Assembly: GCF_900177415.1 (NCBI RefSeq)
Contig: NZ_FXAF01000006.1
Location: 582,001-646,000, forward strand
Source of the DNA: Xaviernesmea oryzae
GTDB taxonomy: Bacteria; Pseudomonadota; Alphaproteobacteria; Rhizobiales; Rhizobiaceae
Length of the DNA: 64,000 nucleotides
Direction of reading: 5' to 3'
This document shows positions 44,471 to 48,731 of this stretch, piece after piece. Below the pieces are notes generated by a model. That model was not told the DNA's origin. It did no database searches and saw only the letters and a program-made list of their open reading frames with translations. Made by a program: the position numbers and the translations under genes. Position 1 is the first letter of the stretch. Each line of letters starts with the position of its first letter.

Positions 44471-44570
44471 ACCGTCATCGTCGCGCGATTCCATTGGACG
44501 GTGTCCTCCCTTGCCCTCGGTTTGCGTTTCATCCATCGGTGCCGGTGGAGCATGCCGCCGCACCCCCCTC

Positions 44571-44830
44571 TGCCCTGCCGGGCATCTCCCCCACAAGGGG
44601 GGAGATCGGATGGGAGCGGCGGCTTCCCAAACGACAAGCGCCGCTATTCGGCATACCGCATACGCATATGGAGGAACTGAGCGGGATCGGCTTGCGCCTT
44701 CTTCTCCCCAGCGGGGAGAAGTGCCGAGCAAAGCGAGGCGATGAGGGGGTGCACACGCGGCAAACGCATTGCCCGATGGTGGCTTCGCCCCCCTCATCCG
44801 CCCTGCCAGGCACCTTCTCCCCGCTGGGAT
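44571..44830 (+). repeat. mosaic repeat macro-unit 1
   Basis: Module order: CCCCCCTCTGCCCTGCCGGG with a CCCCCACAAGGGGGGAGAT palindrome; a linker GACAAGCGCCGCTATTCGG; CTTCTCCCCAGCGGGGAGAA; GTGCCGAGCAAAGCGAGGCG with GGGTGCACACGCGGCAAACG; then CCCCCCTCATCCGCCCTGCC. Typical of Rhizobiales intergenic mosaic elements. Confidence 0.85.
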
Positions 44831-44883
44831 CGGAGGCGGTTTTTCTTGTCGATTTTTCTCAAGGCTTTGATTTGCCTCGCGGC

Positions 44884-45150
44884 ACCCCCCTCTGCCCTGC
44901 CGGGCATCTCCCCCACAAGGGGGGAGATTGGATGGGGCGCCGGCTTCCCTAAACGACAAGCGCCGCTATTCGGCATACCGCATATGAGGAACCGAGCAGG
45001 TTCGGCTTGCGCCTTCTTCTCCCCAGCAGGGAAAAGTGCCGAGCAAAGCGAGGCGATGAGGGGGTGCACACGCGGCAAACGCGGCGCTGGATTTTGGTTT
45101 CGTCCCCCTCATCCGGTCCTTCGGACCACCTTCTCCCCGCTGGGGAGAAG
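44884..45150 (+). repeat. mosaic repeat macro-unit 2
   Basis: The same module order as unit 1, shifted by about 313 bases, with small changes (CTTCTCCCCAGCAGGGAAAA, and TCATCCGGTCCTTCGGACCA in place of the CCGCCCTGCC module). Confidence 0.85.
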
Positions 45151-45189
45151 GGAAAGCCGCTGCCTGTGATCTCCTTCACGGGGGCGATC

Positions 45190-45360
45190 GCATATGAGAA
45201 CCGAGCCAGTTCGGCTTGCGCCCACTTCTCCCCAGCAGGGAGAAGTGCCGAGCAAAGCGAGGCGATGAGGGGGTGCACACGCGGCAAACGCATTGCCCGA
45301 TGGTGGCTTCGCCCCCCTCATCCGCCCTGCCGGGCACCTCCCCGCTGGGGAGAAGGGGAG
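45190..45360 (+). repeat. mosaic repeat macro-unit 3 (partial)
   Basis: Lacks the first palindromic module but repeats the ATATGAGAACCGAGC linker end, CTTCTCCCCAGCAGGGAGAA, the GTGCCGAGCAAAGCGAGGCG module and the closing CCCCCTCATCCGCCCTGCCG module of unit 1. Confidence 0.8.
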
Positions 45361-45539: not shown

Positions 45540-45893
45540 GTGAGCCGGTACAAGATGATGGTCGTAGGTGACAAGGATTTGCTCCCGCCCGGCACCCGCC
45601 ACGCCTGGCAGCAAGCGGGTATCGAGCTTGCGGGGCCAATGCCGCCTGCCGATTTCGACATCCGTCTTGTCAGCGGAATGCACGGCGTCCTGATCCACGC
45701 CGCCTGTGATGCGCAGTTCATGTTCGACGCTTCGGAAATGCTGGAGGCCGCTTCCATTCCCTTCTTGTTCGTCGTCCCCGAGCAGCAGATCGTGGCGCGG
45801 CAGAATCCGCATGTGCTCGGCACCCGGATGGAAGACATCCAGGCGATCGTCCAGGAACTGCTGCGGCAATACGGCAGCGGCGTCAGGCATTAG
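45540..45893 (+). CDS. receiver-like protein without phosphoacceptor Asp
   Basis: A 117-residue protein with the strand/helix rhythm of a receiver domain: KMMVVGDKDLLP (strand 1), LAGPMPPADFDIRL, GMHGVLIHAACD (strand 3) and IPFLFVVPEQQ (strand 4). At the place of the phosphoacceptor Asp stands His53, and no Lys follows strand 5, so phosphorylation is not expected. GTG start at 45540; ATG at 45555 is possible. Its end overlaps the end of the minus-strand gene by four bases. First gene of the small regulatory island. Confidence 0.65.
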   Translation: MSRYKMMVVGDKDLLPPGTRHAWQQAGIELAGPMPPADFDIRLVSGMHGVLIHAACDAQFMFDASEMLEAASIPFLFVVPEQQIVARQNPHVLGTRMEDIQAIVQELLRQYGSGVRH

Positions 45894-46162
45894 GAGCGGC
45901 CGGGCCTTCCATTCGACCGCAGGTCGGCGGCGAATATGTCGTGCATCGACCTGAACAGGCAAAGCCTGACGGCGTCGTCTCCTGCGGCCACGGGAAGCTC
46001 GCGCTTCGCTCTCGCGATCGTCTTTCTGGCAAGGGCGGCCGCCTCTTTCTCGGACGAGAAAAAGCGACGAGCCATGCGGTGGACATCCGGGCCGAGTGCT
46101 TCGATCCGGGGATCGATATCTCCATGCCTGTTTCGGCTCGGCGGATTGGCGGTGACGCTCAT
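45890..46162 (-). CDS. small protein resembling sigma-factor region 2
   Basis: A 90-residue protein. The segment IEALGPDVHRMARRFFSSEKEAAALARKTIARAKREL has the helix pattern of ECF sigma region 2, where the usual acidic edAeDLvQ-type motif would be EKEAAALARKT. The second half (LCLFRSMHDIFAADLR) resembles the following helix, but region 4 is absent. ATG at 46162 has GGAG at seven bases. It may be a sigma-derived adaptor or a decayed sigma gene. Divergent from the Crp/Fnr gene at 46411 across a spacer with two palindromes. Confidence 0.5.
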   Translation of the reverse strand: MSVTANPPSRNRHGDIDPRIEALGPDVHRMARRFFSSEKEAAALARKTIARAKRELPVAAGDDAVRLCLFRSMHDIFAADLRSNGRPGRS

Positions 46163-46214
46163 CGGAAGCTCCATCCTACCAACCGACAATGTCACAGTCC
46201 GTTACATCGTTCCG

Positions 46215-46228
46215 GTACGCTGGCGTAC
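46215..46228 (+). promoter_or_regulatory. GTACGC palindrome, site 1
   Basis: GTACGC-TG-GCGTAC, perfect 6-base arms, about 53 bases upstream of the minus-strand gene start at 46162. Similar to sites at 46284 and, weaker, 48268. Confidence 0.5.
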
Positions 46229-46283
46229 AAACACCCCGTCTGGTCCCCCGCCCCGCTGGGACATGACCAAAAGCCCCTCTTCC

Positions 46284-46297
46284 GTACGGTACCGTAC
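46284..46297 (+). promoter_or_regulatory. GTACGG palindrome, site 2
   Basis: GTACGG-TA-CCGTAC, a perfect 14-base palindrome. Its right end overlaps TACAAT (46295-46300), a possible -10 box for the Crp/Fnr gene at 46411. Its centre is 69 bases from that of site 1. Confidence 0.5.
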
Positions 46298-46410
46298 AAT
46301 CATTGCTATTTGCGATGAGGGGAATATGCTCTCTGCGTCTCATGCAGATTGACCCGGGCGCGAAGGGCCGAAGCACCATGTGCTCCGCCCGAACCAGGAG
46401 GGAAGCACGT

Positions 46411-47127
46411 ATGACCGCCCCTCCGCAATCTTCGATGCAGAACAAGCTTTTGGCGCTGCTTCCGGCAACGGATTACGGCCAGATCGCGCCCGATCTCGAC
46501 CTCATTCCCCTGCCGAAGGGAACGCTGCTCGGCCGGGCAGGCAAACCGATCAAATACGCGTATTTTCTGGCGTCCGGACTTGGCTCCATCGTGGTGACCA
46601 CACCCGAGGGCCACAGCGCGGAGGCCGGGATATTCGGATTCGACGGCTATGTGCCGACTTCCGTCGTGACGGGACTGGATGTCAGTATCCATGACGTCGG
46701 AATGCAGCTCGACGGCGAAGGCTACCGGATAAGCTACGATGCCTTCCGGGGCTGGATGGACAGCAACAGAAGTTTTTCCAGGGTGATGATCCGCGCTGCC
46801 GAAGCCTTTGCGGTGCAACTGGCCTTCACGGCGCTCTCCAATGCCGTTCACGATGTCAACGAACGCCTTGCCCGCTGGCTGCTGATGTGTCACGACCGGG
46901 TCTCGGGCAATGAAATCGCTCTGACCCACGATTTCATTTCATTGATGCTGGCGGTCCGGCGGCCAAGCGTCACGACGTCCCTGCACGTGCTCGAAGGCAA
47001 CGGCTTCATCCGTTCCGAAAGAGGAAGCATCATGATCCGGAACCGTCCGGCCCTTGAGGAGTTTGCACGAGATGCCTACGGAAGACCTGAAGAGGAATAC
47101 CGGCGTCTCATGAAGGATCTTTTCTAG
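46411..47127 (+). CDS. Crp/Fnr family transcriptional regulator (paralog 1)
   Basis: A 238-residue regulator with an N-terminal cyclic-nucleotide-type beta roll (YAYFLASGLGSIVVTTPEGHSAEAGIFG) and a C-terminal winged helix (LTHDFISLMLAVRRPSVTTSLHVLEGNGFI). No N-terminal Cys cluster for an Fe-S centre and no clear cAMP-binding RE motif is seen, so the signal is unknown. ATG at 46411 has an aggaggga site. The C-terminal half is very close to the regulator at 47399-48157 (shared YGRPEEEYRRL-like end), so they are paralogs of one subgroup. Confidence 0.88.
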   Translation: MTAPPQSSMQNKLLALLPATDYGQIAPDLDLIPLPKGTLLGRAGKPIKYAYFLASGLGSIVVTTPEGHSAEAGIFGFDGYVPTSVVTGLDVSIHDVGMQLDGEGYRISYDAFRGWMDSNRSFSRVMIRAAEAFAVQLAFTALSNAVHDVNERLARWLLMCHDRVSGNEIALTHDFISLMLAVRRPSVTTSLHVLEGNGFIRSERGSIMIRNRPALEEFARDAYGRPEEEYRRLMKDLF

Positions 47128-47191
47128 GGCGCTGTTCTATTCTTCGAAGTGGAGTGTCACGCACAGACAGGAGGACAGGCGGAGTTCGAAG

Positions 47192-47437
47192 ATGACACGG
47201 TACTTCTTCCAGATCCGCCGCGGTGGCGTAACCATCACCGACGAAGAAGGCGACGAGTTCGACAGCATTGACGAAGCCCACGCCAATGCCATCAGAGCCG
47301 TGCGGGAATTGTTGGCGGCACGCATCAAGAACGGCGCGATGATCTTGGACGAACATATGGAAATACGCGACGAAACCGGCGCGCTCGTTGTCGCCGTTTC
47401 ATTCCATGACGTCATCAAAAGGCATCTCGGGCGCTGA
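47192..47437 (+). CDS. DUF6894-like small protein
   Basis: An 81-residue protein: MTRYFFQIRRGGVTITDEEG, then an acidic turn, the helix EAHANAIRAVRELLAARIK, and a strand pair MEIRDETGALVVAVSFHD. This matches a small rhizobial family that I know as DUF6894; function not established. It lies 64 bases after Crp/Fnr paralog 1 on the same strand, and its last 39 bases overlap the end of paralog 2 on the other strand. Confidence 0.75.
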   Translation: MTRYFFQIRRGGVTITDEEGDEFDSIDEAHANAIRAVRELLAARIKNGAMILDEHMEIRDETGALVVAVSFHDVIKRHLGR

Positions 47438-48157
47438 GACGGGCCAGAATTCGCCGATGAGACGCCGGTATTCCTCTTCCGGCTCTCCGTAGGCATGGCC
47501 CGCGAATTCCTGCATCCCTTTCCGGTCCCGGATGGTGATGCGGCCGCGCTCCGCCCGGATGAGCTTCTTTCCTTCCAGGACATGCAAGGCGGTGGTGACG
47601 CTGGGCCGTCGGACCCCGAGCATCAGCGAAATGAAATCGTGGGTAAGATTGATCTCGTCGCCATCGACGCGGTCGTGGCCCATCAGCAGCCAGCGCGCCA
47701 GGCGTTCGTCCACCTGATAGGCGATGTTGCAGAGGGCGGTATAGGAAACCTGCGAGGAAAACGCCTGAATGAACCTGGCGAGCAGATTGGCGAAAACCGG
47801 GTTCTGCGCCAGCGTTTCCGCAACCTTCCCGATCGGCATCCGGTAGCCGTTTCCCGCAACCTGCATCAGCACTTCGTGGATGCTGATCGTTCCTCCGACG
47901 CCCGCCGGAGTCGGCGAAAACCCTTCGCGGCCGAACATGCCGGCTTCGGCCTGCTGGCCATCCGCAGAAACGGTCACCACCGATCCGATGCCGCTCTCCA
48001 GGAAATAGACATAGTCGATCGGCCTGCCCGCTTCGACGATGACGAAGCCTCGGGCAAGATCGACCGGCTCCAATACGGTTCTCACGCTGCGGAACTCGTT
48101 TTCGGGCAGCAGGGCCAGAAGCCGATTCCGGATTTCGTTCTGTTCTGCGACGGACAT
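47399..48157 (-). CDS. Crp/Fnr family transcriptional regulator (paralog 2)
   Basis: A 252-residue regulator with the same architecture as the gene at 46411: beta roll (DYVYFLESGIGSVVTVSADGQQAEAGMFG), dimer helix (VDERLARWLLMGHDRV) and winged helix (LTHDFISLMLGVRRPSVTTALHVLEG). It has an extra C-terminal tail (GEFWPVSAPEMPFDDVME), the part encoded by the overlap with the DUF6894 gene. Divergent from the atypical receiver gene at 48345. Confidence 0.88.
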   Translation of the reverse strand: MSVAEQNEIRNRLLALLPENEFRSVRTVLEPVDLARGFVIVEAGRPIDYVYFLESGIGSVVTVSADGQQAEAGMFGREGFSPTPAGVGGTISIHEVLMQVAGNGYRMPIGKVAETLAQNPVFANLLARFIQAFSSQVSYTALCNIAYQVDERLARWLLMGHDRVDGDEINLTHDFISLMLGVRRPSVTTALHVLEGKKLIRAERGRITIRDRKGMQEFAGHAYGEPEEEYRRLIGEFWPVSAPEMPFDDVME

Positions 48158-48267
48158 GGTTCTCGCTGACGTGGGCGAAAGTGCCAGAACTTCCGGCCGC
48201 CATGCCCCTGAATTCCAAGCGGGCGGTTGCCGATTCTATAGCATCCTGTGGTTCGGGGTGATTTTGG

Positions 48268-48281
48268 GTACGCTGGCAGAC
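48268..48281 (+). promoter_or_regulatory. degenerate GTACGC site, site 3
   Basis: GTACGCTGGCAGAC matches site 1 (46215) at 12 of 14 positions; only the right arm is damaged. It lies in the spacer between Crp/Fnr paralog 2 and the receiver gene at 48345. Confidence 0.35.
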
Positions 48282-48344
48282 GCTGGGCCCGCTACCCGTC
48301 CGAAAGGATTAGTCTGCAGGCTCTTCAATTCGGAGGGGCAGGGA

Positions 48345-48731
48345 ATGGAAACTTCAAGAGACCAGACGGTCCTGGTTCTGGAAGACGAGGCGCTGATTGC
48401 CATCTATCTCGAAGAGCTGCTCGCCCAGGCCGGTTTCGACAGTATCAGCACCTATTCGTCCTGTGTCGCCGCAACCGAGTGGCTTCAGCAGCACACGCCG
48501 GAGCTTGCCGTCATGGAGACCCGGCTGAGGGACGGCGCCTGCGACGAGATTGCCGCCATCCTCGCCAAACGCGGCGTGCCCTACATCGTGCATTCGGTGG
48601 AGAGGGATATCGGCGGGCGCCATCCGCAGATGGACAGCAAGTGCAAATGGGTCGACAAGCCCTGCAATCCGGACGAATTCATCCGGGCGGTGAAGGAATG
48701 CGTGCCCGATCACGGGCGGCATATGCTCTGA
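48345..48731 (+). CDS. receiver-domain protein with Glu in place of phosphoacceptor Asp
   Basis: A 128-residue REC-only protein. The acidic cluster EDE (13-15), the helix ALIAIYLEELLAQAG and the final WVDKPCNPDEF Lys region are well kept. Strand 3 reads LAVMETRLRDG, so Glu58 occupies the phosphoacceptor place (compare FVDVRLADG of the regulator at 321). Asp-to-Glu at this site often mimics the phosphorylated state. ATG at 48345 has a ggagggg site. It closes the regulatory island. The Crp/Fnr gene on its left is divergent. Confidence 0.85.
   Translation: METSRDQTVLVLEDEALIAIYLEELLAQAGFDSISTYSSCVAATEWLQQHTPELAVMETRLRDGACDEIAAILAKRGVPYIVHSVERDIGGRHPQMDSKCKWVDKPCNPDEFIRAVKECVPDHGRHML

Follow-up and report, generated by a model that had tools for sequence, protein, structure and literature searches.

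Six small genes, here called A to F, lie at positions 45540 to 48731 of a 64,000-nucleotide stretch of the Xaviernesmea oryzae genome (contig NZ_FXAF01000006.1, positions 582,001 to 646,000; the whole stretch is called the window below) and, by comparison with related genomes, form a conserved regulatory module. We read this island, with a probability of about 60%, as a self-contained arm of the general stress response of Rhizobiaceae, in which a pseudo-sigma factor dosed by Crp/Fnr-family regulators, together with altered receivers, works independently of phosphorylation. The anatomy of the island, its conservation, its operator, its promoter geometry and the ancestry of protein B are established by the sequence comparisons described below. 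All of its parts come from known families; the operator, the composite promoter, the region-2-only derivative of an EcfG sigma factor and the association of the three are undescribed in the open-access literature that we searched. The features of the island are listed in window coordinates (bp, base pairs).

Gene A, 45540..45893, plus strand: degenerate single-domain receiver, 117 amino acids, GTG start
Gene B, 45890..46162, minus strand: sigma region-2-only protein, 90 amino acids, nearest to EcfG2-type extracytoplasmic function (ECF) sigma factors
CATT (instead of CGTT) in the B promoter, 46188-46191: 17 bp beyond GGAAC
GGAAC, 46209..46213, minus strand: EcfG-type -35 of the B promoter, abutting operator copy 1
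Operator GTACG-N4-CGTAC copy 1, 46215..46228: perfect, B promoter side
Operator GTACG-N4-CGTAC copy 2, 46284..46297: perfect, C promoter side
Gene C, 46411..47127, plus strand: Crp/Fnr-family regulator, 238 amino acids
Gene D, 47192..47437, plus strand: DUF6894 protein, 81 amino acids; the 3' ends of D and E overlap in the window
Gene E, 47399..48157, minus strand: Crp/Fnr-family regulator, paralogue of C and convergent with it
TATAGAAT, 48233..48240, minus strand: -10-like box of the E promoter
E-F spacer operator, 48268..48281: GTCTGCCAGCGTAC on the minus strand, two mismatches to the perfect dyad, a common form before E
Gene F, 48345..48731, plus strand: PhyR-type receiver with Glu replacing the phospho-acceptor Asp

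An initial annotation of the window had proposed these six small genes, and all six open reading frames were confirmed. It had also reported that no histidine kinase is present and that a DUF6894 gene separates two close Crp/Fnr paralogs pointing at each other; indeed, none of the six genes encodes a kinase, D matches DUF6894 (3.8e-18 in Pfam), and C and E are convergent, 50% identical and both equipped with a Crp-type helix-turn-helix (HTH_Crp_2).

Conservation of the six-gene module

Relatives of the island genes were sought in a genus set of 57 genomes and a family set of 394 genomes (G and L numbers below denote genomes and loci of this survey). In the genus set, relatives of E occur in 43 genomes, of A in 34 and of F, taken as a general receiver, in 57, and B as a mini-protein was found in five by pairwise search (a sixth match, in G040, sits in a 195-codon frame) and in three more, G005, G044 and G052, by profile search. 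The complete order A-B-C-D-E-F recurs in G015 (Neorhizobium galegae bv. orientalis HAMBI 540, pHAMBI540a), G065 and N. galegae HAMBI 1141, both N. galegae biovars carrying the module on megaplasmids; G005 has the full order with C and F broken. Partial sets comprise A, B, C and E in G042, A, a divergent B, C and E in G044 and G052, C, E and F in G010, and C, D and E in G009, G062 and G014. In G051 (L122:6900-7848), A, B and a broken F are retained and transposase/resolvase-like genes of Tn3 type (assigned by eye) replace C-D-E. Outside the genus, G391 combines a Crp pair with D, an intact EcfG-like sigma gene and a mini-B; in G235 a mini-B, A and D accompany a single Crp gene; and plasmid p2 of Sinorhizobium sp. 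B11 carries the Crp pair.

A convergent pair of the C/E type is present in 13 of 20 mapped loci (once with a broken C, once with a stop in E); the C of G005, present as remnants, comes in addition. The 20 loci were picked for holding matches and hence are not a random sample. Nine neighbours of the island in the window (lepA, enoyl-CoA hydratase, accC and others) had no match in these 20 loci, which mostly span about 6-8 kb on each side. The outer flanks thus differ while the gene order is kept, which argues that the unit stays together. The dedicated regulatory island of the initial annotation is thereby borne out, since other genomes share the order, and the genes do not occur independently without a conserved neighbourhood.

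The ratio of nonsynonymous to synonymous substitution rates (dN/dS) was 0.06-0.47 in 44 of 45 gene pairs, one pair giving no value; these figures are rough, because dS exceeds 1 in many pairs. By gene, C and E gave values of 0.06-0.16, F of 0.09-0.19, A of 0.17-0.27, D of 0.07-0.37 and B of 0.22-0.47. They bear on a plainer explanation of the island, namely ordinary local feedback of two Crp/Fnr proteins, with A, B and F as slowly decaying linked remnants of an older EcfG2/receiver locus. Such decay would agree with the broken C and F of G005, the broken C of G063, the stop in E of G039, the transposon-like genes (Tn3-type by eye) inside the G051 island, the rapid evolution of B, which is the fastest of the six genes, and the loss of the phospho-acceptor Asp of A in the window. 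It sits poorly, however, with dN/dS below 0.5 for all pairs that gave a value and with open frames of A, B and F that are maintained in several species, and we consider it unlikely.

Operator and promoter geometry

The helix-turn-helix of C and E scores 49 and 55.5 bits against HTH_Crp_2 (cut-off 27; 5.8e-13 and 5.5e-15), whereas the cyclic-nucleotide-monophosphate-type (cNMP) beta roll PF00027 stays below its cut-off of 27.5 bits in both (19.8 and 23.5). The four-cysteine iron-sulphur cluster of FNR was not found in either protein, C having a single Cys (160) and E another (143). From their sequences, the two regulators have neither a cysteine cluster nor a convincing cyclic-nucleotide pocket. 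They share with FnrN/FixK-type and Crp regulators the family helix-turn-helix and the 5-4-5 dyad geometry of the site, but differ from them in the single cysteine, in a cNMP domain that scores under the Pfam cut-off and in the half-site, GTACG instead of the TTGAT that we take to be usual there. In the window, E runs past the end point of most aligned orthologues, and this C-terminal extension (47399-47437) reaches into the 3' end of D. Six loci of the same genus (L009, L010, L011, L022, L024 and L029) contain tandem Crp/Fnr paralogues of the same subfamily flanking an oppositely oriented receiver, with DUF6894 near this arrangement in two of them (L009, L010).

The initial annotation had noticed related GTACGC palindromes in both divergent spacers. 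These are well supported, by position and conservation, as a single operator, GTACG-N4-CGTAC, of Fnr-like 5-4-5 geometry, which is perfect twice in the B-C spacer, carries two mismatches in the E-F spacer and is conserved in other loci. The two copies in the B-C spacer are the only perfect dyads in the window, and the 6.07-Mb genome contains just two others. Across 26 further loci, 46 sites deviate from the dyad by no more than one mismatch, and 22 of them fall within 300 bp upstream of Crp genes, stretches that make up 2.9% of the 418 kb examined, and nine control palindromes scored 0-2 each at the same stretches; the loci had been chosen for Crp, A or sigma matches, and 20 of them had been looked at once beforehand. 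For five genomes (G010, G052, G053, G391 and G260), the sole perfect site falls in the module locus; of 30 A loci, five have an operator site anywhere in the locus. The window genome has 4 perfect and 38 one-mismatch sites; the reversed control has 18 perfect sites and 376 altogether. Words of the GTACG type are uncommon in these genomes; we place weight on the position of the operator and not on its number.

Upstream of E, the arrangement is rigid. In 19 of 19 E promoters, an operator with at most three mismatches, of a form near GTNTGCCAGCGTAC, is followed by TATA exactly 27 bp later. The set consists of the window, 15 of the 20 loci, L200, L299 and L300 (L123, a more distant pair, was omitted, and four loci lack E); these promoters are homologous and hence not independent. 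Identity averages 95% over the operator columns and 46% over the upstream flank in 18 rows, L299 being dropped from the averages as a biovar of the same species as L107. Simple shuffling reproduced the arrangement in 13 of 3800 cases; in L117 the best dyad, which lacks the TATA, differs from the dyad counted here. No fixed operator spacing was found for the C promoters, and a sigma-70 promoter scan of the island was uninformative (1 found, 0.7 expected).

At the B promoters, the operator is followed after one base by GGAAC in 9 of 11 cases: with at most one mismatch in the operator in the window, G015, HAMBI 1141, G065, G051, G042, G052 and G044, and with two mismatches in G005, the arrangement being absent from G391 and G235. 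Retention of this promoter in 8 of the 10 genomes other than the window genome (two of the eight are biovars of one species) argues further against B as a decaying remnant. R. etli EcfG1 promoters read GGAAC-N16-CGTT (PMC3892343; this and the other papers are cited throughout from excerpts). At the corresponding -10 position, 16 or 17 bp on, the eight closely matching B promoters have CGTT only in G042, and CATT, GATT or GGTT in the other seven.

The same composite precedes several full-length sigma genes. Five of 11 listed sites before such genes, that of the R. etli plasmid p42f included, have G(G/C)AAC at a distance of one base, and five of the remaining six have GGAAC further downstream (by eye). 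Among the top 30 sigma loci, an operator lies within 420 bp upstream in 10, the window B included, compared with 0-4 of 30 for six controls; without the window B, 9 of 29 loci have one, in each case 96-126 bp upstream of the match. The composite pattern GTNNGN4CGTACNGSAACGA occurs at six places in the 394 genomes, five of them before B or EcfG-like sigma genes (window, G086, G187, G260 and G315) and the sixth, in G209, before a permease-like gene (by eye). Since the same composite promoter stands before several full-length EcfG2-type sigma genes in relatives, B appears to occupy the place that ecfG2 has elsewhere.

The sigma-like protein B and the altered receivers

The initial annotation described B as resembling only sigma region 2, and its predicted structure agrees. 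The AlphaFold2 model (predicted local distance difference test, pLDDT, 76; 9-row alignment) matches sigma region 2, and its best 39 of 50 listed matches in the Protein Data Bank (PDB) are sigma factors, PhyR or transcription complexes, with Z of 10.1 for SigH, 8.9 for RpoE of the RpoE-NepR complex and 7.1-7.7 for PhyR, unrelated entries starting from about 6. For a helical fold Z alone is inconclusive, and the sequence evidence agrees with region 2. The best Foldseek match has an E value of 0.058, and neither the B profile nor the A profile had a significant match among PDB sequences. In Pfam, the window B matches PhyR_sigma2 weakly (E 0.047, under the cut-off); of six B proteins, three match PhyR_sigma2 and one Sigma70_r2, all weakly (best E 0.003-0.004). 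As the PhyR_sigma2 model matches seven places in the window genome, it cannot separate PhyR from EcfG.

The B profile gives 32-46 bits for ten EcfG-like sigmas, 21.6 for the canonical EcfG of the window genome and 4.3 for an unrelated ECF sigma. We reject an origin of B from PhyR on these profile scores, PhyR reaching -0.7 bits. We use the label EcfG2-type for the EcfG-like sigmas, six of which reach about 100-154 bits against NCBIfam models of the EcfG group, compared with up to 342 for the canonical EcfG of the window genome. At 90 amino acids, B ends after region 2 and lacks region 4, which reads the -35 element. In a joint alignment, none of nine B proteins keeps the core-binding motif DDLVQE of region 2.2 whole (G235 retains DLV), and none has Trp in the region 2.3 column; PhyR has likewise lost both DDLVQE and the Trp. 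On this comparison, B is a domain-2-only derivative of a non-canonical EcfG.

In the 394 family genomes, most matches of the B profile are open frames as long as a complete sigma gene, and those of the A profile are receivers; of 63 other genomes with an A match, 16 have a B-profile match at most 2 kb away. In G014, an intact EcfG-like sigma gene is convergent with a receiver gene of A type and lies 2.4 kb from the Crp pair, and we read the B-A pair as an eroded form of such a sigma-receiver pair.

Small proteins with sigma region 2 only have a precedent in RsoA of the SigO-RsoA system of Bacillus subtilis, in which regions 2 and 4 are split and RsoA needs a region-4 partner to start transcription (PMC8103513). 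In the same way, B might be one half of a split sigma factor that serves a small gene set, with region 4 supplied by another protein; its retained sigma-2 fold and its location behind an EcfG-type -35 would suit such a role. We nevertheless regard this as highly improbable: unlike RsoA, B lacks both an intact core-binding motif and a known partner, the region 2.3 Trp is lost in all nine proteins, and the island encodes no region-4-only protein (the rest of the genome was not searched for one).

Protein A has no Pfam match above cut-off. Its model has a receiver-like predicted fold (pLDDT 88), and its Foldseek matches mix receivers with flavodoxins, none of them reaching E 0.001. In an alignment of 27 sequences that includes the window A, the phospho-acceptor column contains Asp in 25, His53 in the window and Phe in G235, and the N-terminal acidic pair occurs in one, from G014. 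By this alignment, the A family has retained the Asp but not the metal-binding pair, and His53 is a late, strain-specific change, as Asp stands in 25 of 27 sequences. With His at its phospho-acceptor site and the acidic pair rare in its family, the window A does not show the residues of a response regulator. The A-type receiver next to the intact sigma gene of G014 has the FATGY motif, the acidic pair and Asp, and so resembles the FAT GUY single-domain receivers such as SdrG; A and F of the window, by contrast, lack the motif, A also lacking the acidic pair and F the Asp.

Protein F is a recognizable receiver (Pfam Response_reg, 1.1e-7) whose best NCBIfam matches are PRK13435-type and PhyR-family response regulator models, all under curated cut-offs. 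Glu replaces Asp in 8 of 8 orthologues (window, G015, G065, G010, G032, G061 and the broken copies of G005 and G051), and the six intact ones retain the acidic pair and the Lys; the G009 and G060 receivers, first aligned with F, carry Asp and were set aside as paralogues. Of the two phosphorylation-dead receivers that the initial annotation had proposed, F fits, its Glu being conserved throughout, whereas the His of A is confined to the window strain.

That annotation had further suggested, as an example, protein-protein control of the two Crp/Fnr proteins; in this version A, B and F would contact C and E directly and thereby switch their binding to DNA. The tight recurring gene neighbourhood, the absence of a kinase from the six genes and the departure of the receivers from the usual phosphorylation residues are compatible with such control. 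However, G063, G066 and G062 keep the Crp pair and D, and no A, B or F was found there in 15-16 kb at the thresholds used; we hold the proposal to be very doubtful. We see better grounds for Crp/Fnr action at the promoters of the module and for an association with EcfG2-type sigma factors.

Links to EcfG2 and a proposed stress-response branch

On plasmid p42f of R. etli CFN 42, a one-mismatch operator begins 64 bp before the start codon of the EcfG-like sigma gene RHE_RS26680 and abuts GCAACGA. The protein is 43% identical to the EcfG of the window genome; a ferritin-like gene is divergent on the other side of the operator, and DUF4142 and Crp/Fnr genes lie within 8 kb (R. etli annotation). 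The layout of this spacer (L297:8886-10201) recurs in G315 (L305) as a divergent DUF892/sigma pair with the composite promoter. According to the excerpts, R. etli EcfG2 (PF00052) is plasmid-borne and 42% identical to RpoE4 (PMC3188799, PMC3892343), and its gene is autoregulated with no promoter motif found (PMC3892343); a review contradicts this, giving ecfG2 as 'without autoregulation' (PMC8103513). RHE_RS26680 is very probably PF00052/EcfG2, and operator-GCAACGA would then be a candidate promoter motif for EcfG2. The excerpts of the published accounts (PMC3892343, PMC8103513) contain no link between Crp/Fnr proteins and EcfG2. EcfG-like sigmas of this sort are the nearest to B by profile, and the p42f gene shares its operator; EcfG2, however, is a full sigma factor, whereas B of the island consists of region 2 only.

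Around perfect operator sites outside islands, 32 regions were inspected, and 18 proteins from 18 of them, together with one L305 protein, were chosen by eye and compared with Pfam. Matches beside perfect sites included DUF892 (G014 and G086; that of G315 adjoins the composite), DUF2383 (G014, and G060 just under the cut-off), DUF4142 and Hsp20 (G014), DUF3597 (G062), DUF6894 (G015, G065), ECF sigma factors (two in G062), GGDEF or GGDEF-EAL proteins (G014, G429, G060), an outer membrane protein (G060), a cNMP-binding protein (G187) and a LuxR-type protein (G014). Several of these families we take to be typical stress genes. In the 14 other regions, the site either lacked a called gene nearby or had neighbours with no evident stress link, and the L253 protein had no Pfam match.

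In the canonical system, PhyR mimics EcfG and thereby captures NepR (PMC8103513). The island resembles it in its putative pseudo-sigma factor and PhyR-type receiver parts, the lost core-binding motif, the GGAAC-type -35 and the link to stress genes. PhyR, however, is one phosphorylation-driven protein, whereas the sigma-like domain, here of region 2 only, and the Glu-bearing receiver are encoded by separate genes, B and F; the island moreover adds Crp/Fnr proteins. The window genome has a phyR / nepR-like / ecfG locus at L220:5532-7236 on contig C3 (nepR assigned by eye), and the island is thus an addition to the general stress response locus and not its replacement.

In the mechanism that we propose, C and E would recognize GTACG-N4-CGTAC and regulate F and B as well as the genes that encode them. 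At the E promoter, with the operator at a fixed distance from the -10-like box, the bound protein may be an activator or a repressor at about -46; at the B promoter, where the operator abuts the EcfG-type -35, a Crp/Fnr protein and an EcfG-class sigma would meet on one promoter. As a remnant of domain 2 of an EcfG2-type sigma that has kept its frame and lost, like PhyR, the core-polymerase motif and the promoter-reading Trp, B would not act as a sigma factor; it would be a pseudo-sigma that binds a sigma partner, either the anti-sigma factor NepR or another protein. A and F would be receivers released from normal phosphorylation, F having Glu, and would act without a kinase. With such receivers and Crp/Fnr control, output would be set by the amount of protein and not by a kinase. 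It is also conceivable, but decidedly unlikely, that B and F are the trans-acting halves of a dismembered PhyR-like anti-anti-sigma factor and form a kinase-free stress switch dosed by the Crp/Fnr pair at joint Crp/Fnr-EcfG promoters.

Several results weigh against a Crp/Fnr-dosed stress-response branch. The rest of the module occurs without B in most genus genomes, and B is short and fast-diverging, with a dN/dS that is rough because dS exceeds 1 in many of its pairs. Single B proteins are weak as sigma factors by sequence (E 0.003-0.05), and the top Z of 10.1 is below about 13, the specificity mark of the tool for helical bundles. The -10 of the window B promoter is poor, CATT at 17 bp compared with CGTT at 16. 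The operator count is not above the reversed control (52 perfect sites versus 229 in 16 genomes), so only position is informative, and the composite pattern occurs six times in the 394 genomes versus 12 times for its reversed control. Four of the five composite places before sigma or B genes had already been seen before we defined the pattern, which leaves G315 as the sole independent success and G209 as a failure. The two other perfect sites in the window genome have no obvious neighbouring stress gene, and for this reason we claim no regulon there. Finally, the D56E variant of the receiver SdrG did not mimic phosphorylation (PMC5898713, excerpt), and thus Glu in F need not mean 'on'.

Even so, the operator and the composite promoter name a candidate controller, a Crp/Fnr subfamily, and its DNA site for one group of EcfG2-type sigma factors that includes the R. 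etli p42f sigma; they predict a set of target genes and offer a handle on the control of these stress sigma factors, an unexplained group in bacteria. Should B prove to be a working pseudo-sigma factor, it would illustrate how a sigma factor shrinks to a protein-binding domain under the same promoter, a plausible path to PhyR-like mimics.

Upstream of the island, the repeat block reported in the initial annotation was recovered at 44556-45357, between the enoyl-CoA hydratase gene and gene A; it consists of three 142-nucleotide copies with CTCCCCGCTGGGGAGAAG-type stems.

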